The position numbers and the translations under genes are program-made. A stretch of DNA of 64,000 bases from Streptomyces bambusae. GTDB taxonomy: Bacteria; Actinomycetota; Actinomycetes; Streptomycetales; Streptomycetaceae. Under the pieces are notes generated by a model, which was not told where the DNA came from, did no database searches, and was given only the letters and a program-made list of their open reading frames with translations. The stretch covers positions 62,001-126,000 of the forward strand of contig NZ_JAJAUZ010000004.1 of the NCBI RefSeq assembly GCF_020532645.1. Reading direction: 5' to 3'. Position 1 is the stretch's first letter; each line of letters begins with the position of its first letter. Below, piece by piece: positions 57,388 through 64,000 of the stretch.

Positions 57388-58545
57388 TCAGTCGACCGGC
57401 TTGCCCGGCTGGTCGTGGGTCGCGCAGTGGATGCCGCCGCCACCGGTGGCGATGGTGTCGATGGACACCGGGACCACGTCCCGCTTGGGGAAGTGCTCGC
57501 GGAGGATGCCGCGGGCCCGGTCGTCCGCCTTCCGGTCGCCGAACTTGGGCATGAACACAGCGTCGTTGGCGACGTAGAAGTTGGCGTAGGTGGACAGGAA
57601 GTCGTCGCTGTAGCCGGTGATCCGGTCCGGGTCGGGCTGCGGGAGGTCGATGATCTCGAAGCGCCTGCCCCGGGCGTCGGTCGACCGGTCGAGGACGGCC
57701 TTGGCCTGGTCGGACGAGCGGGACCAGGAGTCCGGCGGGGTGCCCGGGAACGCCCGGTCCAGCAGGATGACGCCGGGCTCGGTGAACCGTACGAGGCTGT
57801 CGACGTGGGCGTCCGTGATGTCCTCGCCGCGCACGCCGGCCAGCCAGATGACCTTCTGCATGCCCAGCAGGTCCTTCAGCTCGGCCTCGATCCGGTCCCG
57901 GCTCTTCCCCCGGTTGCGGTTGTCGTTGACGATCGAGCTCTCGGTGATCAGCAGGGTGCCCTGGCCGTCGGTCTCGAACGAGCCGCCCTCGGCGATCAGC
58001 GGGGCCTGCACGCGGGGCACCCGGTACTTCGACAGCAGGGCCCGGCCGACCTTGCCGTCGTTGCCGTGCTGCTGCTTGTTGCCCCAGCCGTTGAAGTTGA
58101 AGTCGATGCCGGTGACCTTGCCGGCCTCCTCGACGAAGACCGGGACGGTGTCCCGGGCCCACAGGTCGTCGACCGGCAGCGCCAGCACCTCGACCTGCGA
58201 GCCGCACGCCCGCTGCGCGGCGGCCTGCTGGTCCGGGCGGGCGAGCACCACGACGTACTCGTACTCGGCGATGGCCCGCGCCACCCGCGCGATGTCCTTG
58301 CGGACGTACGGCAGGTCCTCGCCCCACACCGACTCCAGCGCCGGCCACGACATGAAGGTGCGGGCGTGGCTCTCCCACTCGGCCGGCAGCCGGCGGCCGC
58401 CCTCGGCGCGCGCCGAGCGGGCCAGGGCCGCCGTGTCCGAGGACTCCGGGTCGCCGGGCCCGCACGCCGAGGCGCCGAGCGCGAGGACGCCGGCCCCGGC
58501 GAGCGTACGCAGCGCCGCGCGGCGGGAGGGGAGGAAGTCGAACAT
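57388..58545 (-). CDS. Tat-exported agmatine/peptidyl-arginine deiminase-family protein
   Basis: A 385-residue deiminase of the agmatine deiminase/porphyromonas-type PAD family. N-terminus FLPSRRAALRTLAGAGVLALGASAC is a twin-arginine signal with a lipobox-like end, so it is probably an exported lipoprotein. Catalytic features are 'LWARDTVPVFVEE', 'GGSFETDGQGTLL', 'HVDSLVRF' and the terminal GGGGIHCATHDQP with the nucleophile Cys. It would convert agmatine or an arginine-like guanidine to the carbamoyl product and ammonia. ATG at 58545 after GGAGCC. The promoter carries an 18-bp palindrome (58674-58691), repeated at the TetR/kinase gap. Confidence 0.92.
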   Translation of the reverse strand: MFDFLPSRRAALRTLAGAGVLALGASACGPGDPESSDTAALARSARAEGGRRLPAEWESHARTFMSWPALESVWGEDLPYVRKDIARVARAIAEYEYVVVLARPDQQAAAQRACGSQVEVLALPVDDLWARDTVPVFVEEAGKVTGIDFNFNGWGNKQQHGNDGKVGRALLSKYRVPRVQAPLIAEGGSFETDGQGTLLITESSIVNDNRNRGKSRDRIEAELKDLLGMQKVIWLAGVRGEDITDAHVDSLVRFTEPGVILLDRAFPGTPPDSWSRSSDQAKAVLDRSTDARGRRFEIIDLPQPDPDRITGYSDDFLSTYANFYVANDAVFMPKFGDRKADDRARGILREHFPKRDVVPVSIDTIATGGGGIHCATHDQPGKPVD

Positions 58546-58663
58546 GAGGGCTCCGATCGTGGGGCGGACGAGCGCGGGGGCGGCCGGACCCCGTTGTGAC
58601 CAGGGTGCGGTCCGGTGCCGTGTTCCGCCCGGTGTGAGCGGGCGGTGCGCTTTTCGTGCCGCC

Positions 58664-58692
58664 ACTCTGGCACTGACTGAAATTTCAGTCAA
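58664..58692 (-). promoter_or_regulatory. promoter of the deiminase gene with TetR-type operator
   Basis: Reading the reverse strand, TTGACT (58692-58687) lies 17 bases from CAGAGT (58669-58664), a plausible -35/-10 pair. The perfect palindrome TGACTGAAATTTCAGTCA (58674-58691) covers the -35 and spacer, so binding would block transcription. The related palindrome at 59425 has the same position relative to a TTGACT. Confidence 0.75.
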
Positions 58693-58780: not shown

Positions 58781-59380
58781 TCAGAGCCTCCCCAGGTGCC
58801 CGATCTCGACCTCGACCGCCTCGCGCATCAGGTCGCGGGCGTGCTCCTCGCGCAGCAGGCCGCTCAGCCACCGGGTGCTCAGGCCCTCCAGCAGGGCCGT
58901 CAGGCGCTCGGCGGACGCGGTCAGGGCGGGGGCGGGGGCCTGCGGGGCGCTGCGGCCGAGCAGCTCGGCGACCTCGTGCACCCAGACCAGCCCGGCCCGC
59001 GCGAGATCGGTGCGCAGCGCCGGGTCGAAGACCGCGCTGGCCCGCAGCTCGCCCCAGGCGGTGCTGTTCTCGCGGACCTCGGGCACGTCCTGGAACTCCA
59101 GGAGGAGCGTCCGCGCCAGCTCCCGGCGGGGGTCGTCGTCGGTCCCGTCCGCGCGCCCGGCGTCCGATTCGGCGGCCGTGTAGCGGTCCGCGCGGTCGCT
59201 GATGAACTCCAGCGTGTGGTGCAGGATCCCGGCCCGGTCCTTGAAGTGGTAGTAGACCAGGGCGGTCGACACCCCGGCCTCGGCGGCCAGTTCCTCCACG
59301 CGCAACCCGCGGACCCCGCGCCGGGCGATGACCCGCGCCGCGCCTTCCAAGATCGCCGTGCGCCGGTCCGTCGACACCAT
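58781..59380 (-). CDS. TetR-family regulator 1
   Basis: A 199-residue TetR regulator: RRTAILEGAARVIARRGVRGLRVEELAAEAGVSTALVYYHFKDRAGILHHTLEFISDRADRY is the HTH domain, followed by a helical ligand domain (VPEVRENSTAWGELRASAVFDPALRTDLARAGLVWVHEVAELLG). ATG at 59380 with CCGGAGGGA upstream. It is a close paralogue of the regulator at 61222. It is the likely repressor acting at the palindromes at 58674 and 59425, the second of which lies in its own promoter region. Confidence 0.93.
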   Translation of the reverse strand: MVSTDRRTAILEGAARVIARRGVRGLRVEELAAEAGVSTALVYYHFKDRAGILHHTLEFISDRADRYTAAESDAGRADGTDDDPRRELARTLLLEFQDVPEVRENSTAWGELRASAVFDPALRTDLARAGLVWVHEVAELLGRSAPQAPAPALTASAERLTALLEGLSTRWLSGLLREEHARDLMREAVEVEIGHLGRL

Positions 59381-59424
59381 TCCTCGTTCCCTCCGGGTGG
59401 TCTGCACCAGTCAGTGTCTCATAT

Positions 59425-59509: not shown

Positions 59510-61132
59510 ATGTCCGCCCGGCTGCCCGCTCTGCCGCCCGCCCACGAGGCCCTGACCGCCGACGACCCCCGCGAGATCGGCGGCTACCGGCTGCACGCCC
59601 GGCTGGGAGCCGGCGGCATGGGCGTGGTCTACCTCGCCCACACCCCGGGCGGCCGGCCGATCGCCCTCAAGGCGGTCCGGGAGGAGTTCGCCGGCGACCC
59701 CGAGTTCCGCAGCCGGTTCGCACAGGAGGTGGCCAGTGCCCGGCGGATCCACGGCCTGTTCACCGCCCAGGTCGTCGACTCCGGCGTGGACGCCCGGACC
59801 CCCTGGCTGGCCACCGCGTACGTGCCCGGCCCGTCGCTGCACCAGGTCGTCCGACGGCACGGCCCGCTGCCGCCGCGCACCGTGCTGCTGCTGATGGCCG
59901 GGGTGGCCGAGGCCCTCCAGGCGATCCACGCGGCCGGGGTCGTGCACCGGGACCTCAAGCCCGCGAACGTGCTCCTCGCCTCGGACGGTCCCCGCGTGAT
60001 CGACTTCGGCATCGCCCGCGCCGCCGACGCGACCGCACTCACCGGGACCGGCCTGCGGATCGGCACGGCGGCGTTCATGGCTCCCGAGCAGGCGCTCGGC
60101 CTGCCGGTCACGCCCGCCACGGACGTCTTCGCGCTGGGTGCGCTCGCGGCGTACGTGGCGAGCGGCGCGGCCCCGTTCGGCGCCGGTCCGGAGTCGGCCG
60201 CGCTCTACCGGGTGGTGCACGAGCACCCTGACCTGGCCGCCGTGCCGGCCGGGCTGCGCGACCTGCTGGCCTGGTGCCTGACCAAGCGGCCCGAAGACCG
60301 CCCGGCGCCGGGCACGCTCATCGCCGCCGTGCACGCGCACCCGCTGATGGGTGCGGGGCACGGGTTCGCGGAGGGCTGGCTGCCGCACGAGGTCGGCCGC
60401 GAACTGGCCGGCCCCCCCGCCGGGCCGCCCTCCCTGCCGGTGCACGACCAGCCGACGGCGGTGGGGGCACCGCCCTTCCCCGCCCCGACCGCCCCGGGGC
60501 CGGTGCCCACGGCTCCCGGTTTCCCGGTGCAGGCGCCCGGCGGGCCGTCCGCTGAGGCGCCGCGCCGGGGGCGCCGCACCGAGCGTCGCCGCCGGTCGGT
60601 CGTGGTGCCGGCGGTGGCCGCGACGGTGGCGCTGGCCGGCGCCGCCGGGGCCGGCGTGTGGTTCCTCGGGCCGCAACCGGAGGCCCGCGGAGCCGTGCGC
60701 ACGCCGCGGACGCCGGCGGCCGCGGCCCCCGCGGGCACGGGCGGGACGGCCCGGGCCGGTGCGTACGCGCCCACCGCGGCCGGCGTCGAGCTGACCGCGC
60801 CCGACGCGAGCTACGAGTTCGACCTCGCCGCCGCGAAGGTGGTGCCCGCGGACACCGCCCAGTGGTATCTGGCCCGGGACGAGCGGGACTTCGTGGTCCC
60901 CGAGGCGGCCGATGCGTACGTGGCCGCCGGCGACGGGCTCGGACCCGAGGAGTGCGTCCGCGGCATCGAGACCGAGCCGGTGACCGTGCTGGCCGTCGAC
61001 GAACTGGCCGACGAGCGGCCGTTCTGCGTACGGAGTCCCGACGGCAGGGACCTCGCGGTCGTACGCCTCCTGGAGACGGAGCCGGACGGTGGGGCGGTCA
61101 CGGTGCTCGTGGACCGGTACCGGTGGGGCTGA
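59510..61132 (+). CDS. transmembrane Ser/Thr protein kinase
   Basis: A 540-residue Hanks-type kinase. Kinase domain residues 25-280: LGAGGMGVVYLA, IALKAV (Lys), VVHRDLKPANVLL, VIDFGIA and AAFMAPEQALG. A Pro-rich linker follows to about 350, a single membrane helix at about 365-385 (VVVPAVAATVALAGAAGAGVWFLG), then an extracellular domain of about 120 residues with two Cys (EECVRGIE; PFCVRSPDG) and no PASTA repeats. ATG at 59510 after GAAGGAG. Divergent from a TetR gene with a shared operator, so probably under the same control as the deiminase. Confidence 0.93.
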   Translation: MSARLPALPPAHEALTADDPREIGGYRLHARLGAGGMGVVYLAHTPGGRPIALKAVREEFAGDPEFRSRFAQEVASARRIHGLFTAQVVDSGVDARTPWLATAYVPGPSLHQVVRRHGPLPPRTVLLLMAGVAEALQAIHAAGVVHRDLKPANVLLASDGPRVIDFGIARAADATALTGTGLRIGTAAFMAPEQALGLPVTPATDVFALGALAAYVASGAAPFGAGPESAALYRVVHEHPDLAAVPAGLRDLLAWCLTKRPEDRPAPGTLIAAVHAHPLMGAGHGFAEGWLPHEVGRELAGPPAGPPSLPVHDQPTAVGAPPFPAPTAPGPVPTAPGFPVQAPGGPSAEAPRRGRRTERRRRSVVVPAVAATVALAGAAGAGVWFLGPQPEARGAVRTPRTPAAAAPAGTGGTARAGAYAPTAAGVELTAPDASYEFDLAAAKVVPADTAQWYLARDERDFVVPEAADAYVAAGDGLGPEECVRGIETEPVTVLAVDELADERPFCVRSPDGRDLAVVRLLETEPDGGAVTVLVDRYRWG

Positions 61133-61221: not shown

Positions 61222-61800
61222 ATGGCGTCTCGCAGTACTCAGATCCTCGAAGCGGCCGCCCGGGTCATCGCCCGGCGCGGGGTCCGCGGGCTGCGCGTGG
61301 AGGAGCTGGCCGCCGAGGCGGGCGTGTCCACGGCGCTCATCTACTACCACTTCAAGGACCGCACCGGGATCCTGCGGCAGACGCTGGAGTTCATCAACGA
61401 CCGCGCGGAGCGGTACACGACCGAGCGCGATCCCGACGCGGAGCCGCTGAGCCCGCGCGAGGAGCTGGACCACACACTGCTGCTGGAGCTGCAGGACACC
61501 ACCGAGGTGCGGGAGAACAGCAGCGCGTGGGGCGAGCTGCGGGCCAGTGCCGTCTTCGACGAGGAGCTGCGGGAGGACCTGGCGCGGGCGACGCTGGTGT
61601 GGGTCCAGGAGGTTGCCGCACTGCTCGGGCAGGTGCGGCCCATGGCGCCGGCGGTCGCGCTCGCGGCGGCGGCGGAGCGGCTCACCGCGCTGCTGGAGGG
61701 GCTGAGCATGCGGTGGCTGAGCGGGACGCTGCAGATCGGGCACGCGCGGGTCCTGATGGCCGAGGCGATCGAAGTCGAGCTGGCTCGGCTGGGGCGCTGA
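61222..61800 (+). CDS. TetR-family regulator 2, paralogue of regulator 1
   Basis: A 192-residue TetR regulator. Its first 65 residues are almost identical to the 58781 gene product (AARVIARRGVRGLRVEELAAEAGVSTAL[IV]YYHFKDR), and VRENS.AWGELRASAVFD is shared, so both probably recognise similar DNA. The ligand-binding half differs more. ATG at 61222. It lies 89 bases after the kinase gene on the same strand. I found no copy of the palindrome directly upstream of it. Its stop is followed by a palindromic repeat. Confidence 0.92.
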   Translation: MASRSTQILEAAARVIARRGVRGLRVEELAAEAGVSTALIYYHFKDRTGILRQTLEFINDRAERYTTERDPDAEPLSPREELDHTLLLELQDTTEVRENSSAWGELRASAVFDEELREDLARATLVWVQEVAALLGQVRPMAPAVALAAAAERLTALLEGLSMRWLSGTLQIGHARVLMAEAIEVELARLGR

Positions 61801-61919: not shown

Positions 61920-61955
61920 ATCCAGCCGTCGGATTTTCCGGCGGCTGGATTCTTT
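61920..61955 (+). terminator. hairpin with T-rich tail upstream of eshA
   Basis: ATCCAGCCG (61920-61928) pairs with CGGCTGGAT (61942-61950), with an extended inner stem around GATTTTCC; TTCTTTGTGTGTG follows. It could end readthrough from the TetR gene or act as an attenuator in the leader of eshA. The surrounding 250 bases are unusually AT-rich for this window and probably contain the eshA promoter. Confidence 0.6.
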
Positions 61956-62023
61956 GTGTGTGTCCGAATAGTGGTCGGCGGTCGGATAAACCCGGAGATC
62001 GGCAAGATCACCGCATCGAGGTA

Positions 62024-62131
62024 ATGAACACGCTTCCCAAGGTCAACTGGGCGAATGGGCCATTACTGTTCCTCGTGTTCTGGAGGGATTCCCGAACAAA
62101 TGCCCCTTTCCTCCTCTTTCCGGTGACGTGA
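62024..62131 (+). CDS. possible 35-codon leader ORF before eshA
   Basis: ATG at 62024 follows ATCGAGGTA, and the frame reads MNTLPKVNWANGPLLFLVF… to TGA at 62129, 42 bases before eshA. The sequence has lower third-position GC than real genes here, so it may be an unselected frame in promoter DNA. Listed because of its position and a GAGG site. Confidence 0.2.
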   Translation: MNTLPKVNWANGPLLFLVFWRDSRTNAPFLLFPVT

Positions 62132-62173: not shown

Positions 62174-63586
62174 ATGACCGTTGAGACCAGCCCCGAGGTG
62201 CAGCCGGACGCACCCCGGCAGGCCAGCCTGGCCACGGCAGCCGCCCGCAACCTCGCCTCCACGACCAAGTCCGCCCCGCAGATGCAGGAGATCACCTCCC
62301 GCTGGCTGCTGCGGAGCCTTCCCTGGGTGGAGACCAAGGGCGGCACGTACCGGGTGAACCGACGGCTGAGCTACACCGTCGGCGACGGGCGCATCGAGTT
62401 CGTCCAGGACGGTGCCGACGTCCGCGTCATCCCCCGCGAACTCGGCGAACTCGCCCTGCTGCGCGGCTTCGAGGACGAGGGCGTGCTGATCGCGCTCGCC
62501 AACCGGTGCGTCCAGCGCGACTTCCGCGCCGGCGAGGTCCTCGTCGAGCGCGGCACCCCCGCCGAGCACATCCACCTGATCGCGCACGGCCGGATCAGCC
62601 AGAGCGCCCCCGGCAAGTACGGGGACGAAGTCGCGGTCGCCGTCCTGGCCGACGGCGACCGCTACGGCGAGAACGCGCTGCTCGACGCCGACGCCACCTG
62701 GGACTACACGGCCACCGCCGAGACCCCCGGCACCCTGCTGACGCTGTCCCGCGCCGACTTCGAGGCGATCCGCAGCCAGGCACCCGGACTCCATTCGCAC
62801 ATCGAGCAGTTCAGCTCGCTGCCGCTCCAGCGCCAGAACCGGCACGGCGAGGCCGAGATCGCGATGTCCGCCGGCCACACCGGCGAGCCCGAACTCCCCG
62901 GCACCTTCGTCGACTACGAGCTCAACCCCCGCGAGTACGAGCTGTCCATCGCGCAGACCGTGCTCCGTGTCCACACCAGGGTCGCCGACCTCTACAACGG
63001 TCCGCACAACCAGACCGAGGAACAGCTCCGGCTCACCATCGAGGCGCTGCGCGAGCGCCAGGAGTACGAGCTGGTCAACAACCGGGAGTTCGGCCTCCTC
63101 CACAACGCCGCCTTCAAGCAGCGCATCCAGACCCACTCCGGACCGCCCACCCCGGACGACCTCGACGAGCTGCTCTGCCGCCGCCGCGGCACCCGCTTCT
63201 TCTTCGCCCACCCCAAGGCGATCGCCGCGATCGGCCGCGAGTTCAACTCCCGCGGGCTCTACCCCTCCCACGTGGACGTCGGCGGGCAGCAGGTGCCGGC
63301 CTGGCGCGGGGTGCCGATCCTGCCGTGCAACAAGATCCCGATCTCCAAGGACAACACCACCTCGATCCTCGCCATGCGCACCGGCGAGGACAACCAGGGC
63401 GTCATCGGCCTCCGCCAGACCGGGCTGCCCGAGGAGTACGAGCCGGGCCTGTCCGTGCGGTTCATGGGCATCAGCGACCAGGCGATCATGTCGTACCTCG
63501 TCACGACGTACTACTCCGCCGCGATCCTGGTCCCCGACGCGCTCGGCGTCCTGGAGAACGTCCAGATCGCCCGCCGGCGCGACTGA
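62174..63586 (+). CDS. eshA: family 2B encapsulin shell protein (EshA-type) with cyclic-nucleotide-binding-like domain
   Basis: A 470-residue protein of the EshA/SrpI group. Residues 1-90 form an N-terminal arm ([25 protein letters not shown]…). Residues about 100-200 are an inserted cyclic-nucleotide-binding-like cassette ([27 protein letters not shown] … [27 protein letters not shown]). Residues 235-470 carry the HK97-type shell fold ([40 protein letters not shown] … [51 protein letters not shown]). Known relatives assemble into nanocompartments loaded with terpene cyclases. AAGGAG precedes the ATG. The next gene is a probable 2-methylisoborneol synthase. The phosphate-binding Arg expected in the cassette is missing. 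Confidence 0.93.
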
Positions 63587-63611
63587 GAGCCCCGCCCGCC
63601 CGAAGGCCGTC

Positions 63612-63631
63612 GGCCCGGACCGCTCCGGGCC
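63612..63631 (+). promoter_or_regulatory. intra-operon hairpin between eshA and the terpene synthase gene
   Basis: GGCCCGGA and TCCGGGCC around CCGC, 26 bases after the eshA stop. It could lower downstream expression or stabilise the shell mRNA. Confidence 0.45.
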
Positions 63632-63697
63632 CGGCCGGGCATGCCCGGGACCAGGGAACGAACCGGGACAGCCCACCCACCCCTCTAGGAGTCACGG

Positions 63698-64000
63698 ATG
63701 CCCGAGCCCGGGCTCTCCCCGCTTCAGTCGAGCCTGCCCTCCGCCGCGGCACACTTCGGGGCACACGTCCTCGCGCACGCCGTCAACGACCCCGCCGCCG
63801 GTGCCGGGGCGGCGGTCGGCGGCCGCCCCACCGTGCCCGCCGCACCCGCCACCGCGACCGTGCCGGAGCCGCCCGCTCCGGAGCCGCCCGCTCCGGCGCC
63901 GCCGCCGGCGGGCCGGCCCCTCCCCTCCGTCCCGTCCCTGGTTACGTCGCTCGCCGCGCCGCCGGCCGAACCGGAAGCCGCCCCCGTGGCACACGGCTCC
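63698..64000 (+). CDS. probable 2-methylisoborneol synthase, N-terminal part only
   Basis: The frame opens at ATG 63698 after CTAGGAG and is still open at the window end (101 codons). The visible part is an Ala/Pro-rich disordered segment (…AATATVPEPPAPEPPAPAPPPAG type composition; starts MPEPGLSPLQSSLPSAAAHFGAHVLAHAV). No catalytic motif is inside the window. The call rests on position directly after an eshA-type encapsulin gene, as in Streptomyces loci with a 2-MIB synthase and a GPP methyltransferase, and on the Pro-rich N-terminal extension those synthases carry, thought to help load cargo into the shell. Confidence 0.7.
   Translation, partial: MPEPGLSPLQSSLPSAAAHFGAHVLAHAVNDPAAGAGAAVGGRPTVPAAPATATVPEPPAPEPPAPAPPPAGRPLPSVPSLVTSLAAPPAEPEAAPVAHGS

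Follow-up and report, generated by a model that had tools for sequence, protein, structure and literature searches.

Two questions are raised by the protein shell gene that lies close to the end of the window (the whole 64,000-nucleotide stretch of Streptomyces bambusae DNA analysed here, G000:C103:62001-126000 of an 8.3 Mb assembly in 168 contigs): which enzyme the shell would enclose, and by what feature that enzyme would be addressed to it. The initial annotation had proposed a complete family 2B encapsulin gene, and this was confirmed, since the open reading frame starts with ATG, encodes 470 residues and scored well above the cut-off of 400 of the NCBIfam family 2B encapsulin model (Table 1). 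The predicted protein aligned with PDB 9bhu across residues 1–467 (834 bits) and is identical at 365 of 470 residues to its S. griseus counterpart (L331), which matches the 9bhu chain letter for letter over the first 102 residues. The 9bhu structure presumably derives from bioRxiv 590730, an entry in the reference list of PMC12407261. By analogy with this homologue of solved structure, the window shell would be predicted to self-assemble into an icosahedral particle. The match to a cyclic-nucleotide-binding fold precedes that to the capsid domain, and the insertion domain includes a 19-residue stretch which we take to lack the arginine of the usual phosphate-binding cassette. The available text of PMC12407261 places the cNMP-fold domain of family 2B shells within the E-loop and cites work in which this domain showed no cyclic nucleotide binding. 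A profile search of the genome's contigs produced one shell match on contig C103 and a second on C129; the window shell gene, with approximately 100 kb of the 226-kb C103 on each side, has no second shell gene within 10 kb, the spacing taken to mark two-component systems.

The next frame begins on the same strand with an ATG at 63698, 111 bases past the shell stop, confirming that shell and cargo genes are neighbours on one strand, and runs off the window end. Reading was continued on the same contig (locus L009, in which position equals window position minus 59999), showing that the in-window part comprises only the first 101 codons of a 476-residue protein. This protein scored 481.8 bits against the family 2 encapsulin cargo terpene cyclase model NF041167 (cut-off 400), 646.6 bits over residues 41–476 against the 2-methylisoborneol synthase PDB 3v1v, its closest solved structure, and 107 bits against the terpene cyclase domain PF19086. 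Residues 1–152 contain 35 Pro and 35 Ala, with the catalytic domain starting at about residue 153, and a tail motif, GPSGIGT, occupies residues 109–115. Long N-terminal tails with a GPTGLGT-type motif, mostly disordered, are characteristic of this cargo family. The proposal that the gene with the Pro-rich N-terminus is of 2-methylisoborneol synthase type is supported by these data. Past position 64000 the frame contains both an Asp-rich motif (DDCYCED, residue 233) and an NSE-type motif (NDLYSYTKE, residue 381), the cyclase signatures that had been expected there, and the opposite outcome foreseen at the outset, a downstream frame devoid of a terpene cyclase domain, did not occur. The GPP methyltransferase gene sought in the same region was found directly after the cargo gene, with a start 2 or 14 bases past its stop (ATG or GTG). 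Searched as a protein beginning one residue past the ATG, this geranyl diphosphate 2-C-methyltransferase scored 471.7 bits against NF041943 (cut-off 400) and 564.9 bits against PDB 4f84. By analogy, the cargo product would be 2-methylisoborneol (2-MIB) formed from 2-methyl-GPP.

Table 1. Positions of features in and next to the operon in the window, with the evidence for each
Feature	Position	Strand	Evidence
Hairpin with T-rich tail, 14 pairs	61920..61950	+	consensus scan, 2 sites vs 0.7 expected
Partly conserved promoter/operator region of operon (candidate)	61986..62093	+	class A upstream alignment
Family 2B encapsulin shell gene (EshA type), 470 aa	62174..63586	+	NF041163 765.8 bits; PDB 9bhu
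Insertion domain, cyclic-nucleotide-binding fold, shell residues 115-201	62516..62776	+	Pfam PF00027 (cNMP_binding) 58 bits
HK97-fold capsid domain (SrpI-like), shell residues 219-467	62828..63574	+	Pfam PF19307 464.1 bits
Intergenic stretch shell/cargo, RBS AGGAG 63687-63691	63587..63697	+	sequence
2-Methylisoborneol synthase, first 101 codons, Pro/Ala-rich tail	63698..64000, on to G000:C103:127128	+	NF041167, PDB 3v1v

The same three genes in the same order constitute eshA-mibA-mibB of S. venezuelae (as described in the available text of PMC6428758) and of S. griseus (L331), from which the window differs only by sequence-level divergence, with tail length and spacer varying as elsewhere. The operon is of an already known type; the initial annotation had correctly described the arrangement as known in Streptomyces, but the special cargo tail and shell variant that it also suggested were not borne out, both being typical of the genus. 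In the accessible part of PMC8346489, terpene cyclases are reported in 904 family 2B operons, and GPTGLGT is put forward as the targeting motif of 2-MIBS-like cyclases. The systems described there resemble the window in having a capsid with a cNMP insertion, an adjacent 2-MIBS-like cyclase with a Pro/Ala tail and a C-methyltransferase, whereas the window carries GPSGIGT in place of GPTGLGT and one shell gene in the operon. The two-component encapsulin of S. lydicus (PDB 9bix and 9bje, 645 and 608 bits, assigned to this pair by loop motifs printed in the available text of PMC12407261) shares the family 2B fold with the window shell but has two shell genes, a putative xylulose kinase system and a different inner loop motif. 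The second shell of the present genome, on C129, is homologous to the window shell (307 of 470 residues identical), but its cargo is a polyprenyl transferase (NF041169) and no cyclase gene was found beside it.

In S. venezuelae, eshA-mibA-mibB is a single operon directly activated by BldC according to the available text of PMC6428758, and the part of PMC8549240 at hand describes direct control by BldM and the attraction of springtails by 2-MIB. The hairpin upstream of the window shell gene is the probable terminator of the preceding TetR gene, which ends at 61800, and because this terminator-like structure closes that gene the shell operon probably has a promoter of its own. Over the 300 bases compared upstream of the shell, the candidate promoter/operator region shows blocks where the window base is shared by 70% or more of the 37 class A sequences (classes are defined below; the window's own region is included), interspersed with less conserved stretches. 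BldC and BldM may bind in this region, as judged from S. venezuelae; no BldC or BldM site was identified upstream of the shell gene and a sigma-70 promoter scan of the DNA upstream of the shell found none. A hairpin between the shell and cargo genes had also been claimed. A stem can indeed form in the intergenic RNA, but it is no better than chance (z −0.11, 84 of 200 shuffled sequences being no less stable); it consequently carries no weight and was rejected as a regulatory element.

To place the cargo within its genus, the window cyclase was compared with all 95 other congeneric cargo-model matches. Matches to the cargo model at E 1e-60 were present in 83 of 150 genus genomes (81 above cut-off) and matches to the shell model in 147 of 150, the own genome included in both counts, and 76 of the 80 named loci among the closest cargo relatives (best 80 of 248) were from Streptomyces. 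A 2B shell gene lies upstream on the same strand in 75 of the 96 cyclase genes, and a methyltransferase gene lies downstream in 75 of these 75. By identity to the window catalytic domain the genes were divided into class A (77–100%, 42 genes), class B (48–58%, 28 genes) and class C (31–42%, 26 genes), the window cyclase being by sequence a member of class A. A loose motif, GPxGxGT, and a stricter version were counted in the tails (Table 2), both patterns having been chosen after the tails were read; in shuffled tails the expected number of loose motifs was 0.64 for shell-linked class A and 0.30 for shell-linked class C, and that of strict motifs at most 0.01. The one shell-linked class A gene without the motif (L076) has no readable tail. 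In 23 of the 24 shell-linked class B genes only 18–34 residues separate the shell stop from the catalytic domain, and LPGPP or MPGPP is present in all 23; the remaining gene, L112, has a long tail with GPTGIGT. As a separate observation, the 24 loci L113–L137 except L117 encode short-tailed 2-MIBS-like cyclases with an LPGPP-type peptide, with a 2B shell gene directly upstream in all except L122.

Table 2. Tail motif counts by cyclase class and position of the shell gene
Class	Shell position	Genes (n)	Loose motif	Strict motif
A	upstream	37	36	33
A	no shell in sequence examined	2	2	2
A	contig ends	3	1	1
B	upstream	24	1	1
B	no shell in sequence examined	3	2	2
B	otherwise placed	1	1	1
C	upstream	14	14	10
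C	no shell in sequence examined	9	6	4
C	otherwise placed	2	1	0
C	contig end	1	1	0

A strict requirement of the motif for a linked shell gene was rejected, as the loose motif is kept by cyclases with no shell in the sequence examined (up to 7.9 kb) in two of two cases in class A, two of three in class B and six of nine in class C. The shell-less genes without it were L122, which has LPGPP, L082, with the near miss GPTGLGI, and L138 and L139, both of which score under the cut-off of the family model and lack a methyltransferase match. The loci L071, L081, L052 and L067 encode 2-MIB-type cyclases that carry the loading motif with no shell gene in the upstream sequence examined. When the own genome was scanned at the DNA level for GPxGLGT-like codons, 15 matches were obtained and a reversed control gave 22, so that the scan carries no information.

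Tail type was then set against shell phylogeny, using a tree that covered 86 of the 131 extracted shells and was built by a quick method with SH-aLRT support only. One group united the 10 class A shells (99) and a second the six class B shells sampled from short-tail loci (100); class C shells, which occurred in several places, included two among the polyprenyl-transferase-type shells, and the L112 shell was placed among those of class C. In a cyclase tree of 47 of the 96 genes the L112 catalytic domain was sister to short-tailed class B (99). With its shell in class C and its catalytic domain beside class B, the L112 locus is an informative mosaic, the only one, in which tail type therefore follows the shell. 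This would fit an address read by the shell, although with a single case retention of an old long tail explains the arrangement equally well, and, linked genes being inherited together, the way in which tails are distributed over shell clades does not prove that they are matched. The comparison across the family suggests how enzymes may be addressed to shells, and as three tail types sort with shell clades in the loci compared, family 2B loading, for which the literature consulted only proposes addresses, becomes testable by tail and shell swaps. The value of the operon is thus comparative, since it is itself a further example of an odour-producing compartment that is already known. What the comparison adds is a second tail type, which is short and found with a separate shell clade, the single mosaic, and geosmin-synthase tags mostly without a neighbouring shell gene. 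In the literature searched no paper on tail-to-shell matching in Streptomyces was recognised, which is not proof that none is in print.

We consider it very likely that the window ends in an eshA-mibA-mibB operon whose 2-MIB synthase is packed in a family 2B shell via an address in its tail. Three genes with the order, domains and catalytic motifs of such an operon are present and the tail motif is conserved; assembly, loading, product and regulation can be envisaged from relatives and published work. The encapsulin would assemble into its icosahedral shell, the GPSGIGT-type address within the long Pro/Ala-rich tail would bind the shell interior, and the cyclase would be packed during assembly. 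Geranyl diphosphate 2-C-methyltransferase, probably outside the shell, would methylate GPP, and the resulting 2-methyl-GPP would enter via shell pores and be cyclised inside to 2-MIB, made at sporulation under BldC/BldM control and drawing springtails by its odour. Comparative support indicates that the cyclase is probably inside the shell by virtue of its tail; as to the reason for enclosure, we would guess that a tail-regulated, volatile-making enzyme is held in one place. Several observations count against a packed cyclase. Within the available text of PMC6428758, eshA was not required for 2-MIB biosynthesis, and enclosure is therefore not needed for the chemistry. In the accessible part of PMC10520479 the Pro-rich domain is found to decrease enzyme activity and to improve solubility over the long term, which would give the tail another function. 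In 13 of 80 named loci (best 80 of 248) the tail motif is retained and no shell was found in the upstream sequence examined. These observations would also be expected if the tail were mainly a solubility aid and activity brake, the shell being co-transcribed for another purpose and the cyclase not enclosed. Such an arrangement appears improbable given that, of the shell-linked genes, 36 of the 37 in class A and all 14 in class C keep a short motif in an otherwise diverging tail, and that tail type goes with shell clade, in the L112 mosaic too.

The composition of the shell and the identity of the product were weighed in the same way. Mixing of the window shell protein with the second 2B shell protein of the genome is conceivable from their overall identity, which rises to 184 of 245 residues in the capsid part, and from the existence of mixed two-component 2B shells in S. 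lydicus. In the available text of PMC12407261, however, the S. lydicus pair is encoded by neighbouring genes and has diagnostic loop motifs, from which the loops of the two shells of this genome (DVGGQQVP and EVGGHHIP) differ, and the second shell has a polyprenyl-transferase cargo gene of its own; a mixed shell is accordingly quite improbable. A methylated monoterpene other than 2-MIB, such as 2-methylenebornane, might be considered in view of the two further cyclase classes of the genus, at the lower identities given above, many members of which lie beside a 2B shell and a methyltransferase. The window cyclase falls, however, in the class A clade with SH-aLRT 100 and aligns with 3v1v over all but its first 40 residues, making another product very improbable.

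The second 2B shell gene (L010, contig C129) was examined as a cargo-less orphan, and this was rejected, the next gene downstream encoding a polyprenyl transferase (NF041169 484.6 bits, cut-off 450); each of the 18 congeneric single-shell loci chosen for comparison has a homologue downstream of its shell. Flavohemoglobin and Rrf2 neighbours, present at only 3 of the 18 loci, were dropped as partners. In the polyprenyl transferase gene (L010:8773-9801, minus strand, G000:C129) no ATG, GTG or TTG occurs between 8 codons upstream and 11 codons downstream of the apparent domain start, and the likeliest start is a CTG overlapping the shell stop (CTGA), leaving almost no tail.

Geosmin synthase was present in 147 of 150 congeners, and a tag-like motif was found in the linker or C-terminus of 48 of 51 genus geosmin synthases. 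These comprised 30 of 30 best matches to a model spanning the C-terminal tag, a sample biased because the search model itself spans that tag; 17 of 20 chosen mainly as matches stopping short of it (G014 excepted), with flanks too short for a shell search; and the own copy. This own synthase (L170, G000:C118:41006-43189) has no C-terminal tag and only the linker version PKGLGTSALDL. In 28 of the 30 flanks (1.5 kb or less) no shell gene was found near the geosmin synthase, the exceptions being L140 and L141. Across 345 genomes of the class a 2B shell was found in 78 of 81 with a geosmin synthase versus 6 of 264 without, a count in which kinship is uncontrolled, 14 capsid-half-only genomes are scored as without 2B and G313 (capsid-half, over the cut-off alone) as with. 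In five of the six shell genomes without geosmin synthase, the shell gene has genes for a methyl-terpene cyclase and a methyltransferase as neighbours. Among 45 genomes from other genera of the class that have both geosmin synthase and a 2B shell, 35 encode the two within 6 kb of each other, and the available text of PMC12224551 reports encapsulins in all myxobacterial geosmin clusters compared. Matches to the 2B shell and to geosmin synthase are both missing from one congener (G008, 98% complete, 740 contigs), and the two may have been lost together.

It is possible, if doubtful, that such tags are portable addresses matched to shell lineages, including shells encoded elsewhere. In favour of this stand the tag counts, the neighbourhoods in other genera and the co-occurrence figures given above. 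The shell encoded with the polyprenyl transferase, present in almost the whole genus, would then take up geosmin synthase in trans, and its locus could provide the prenyl diphosphate substrate, while short-tailed methyl-terpene cyclases would use LPGPP as a second address read only by their own shell clade. If geosmin synthase were so loaded, shells would be the site of synthesis of both familiar soil odours. Tagged geosmin synthases with no detected 2B shell (L263 and L264) speak against strict dependence, and the portable-tag reading is weakened by these two loci, by the resident cargo at the shell and by the linker-only tag of the own synthase; because of that resident cargo the geosmin idea is reduced to loading beside it. 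No paper on geosmin synthase loading in Streptomyces was recognised in the literature searched, which does not prove that none has been printed.

Elsewhere in the window, two TetR-type regulator genes (58781-59407, minus strand, and 61222-61800, plus strand) flank a protein kinase gene (59510-61132), and the regulators look like paralogues, having nearly the same N-terminal part. The gene at 57388-58692 (minus strand) encodes an agmatine-deiminase-type protein (PF04371, 360 bits) with, by eye, an apparent twin-arginine lipoprotein signal.
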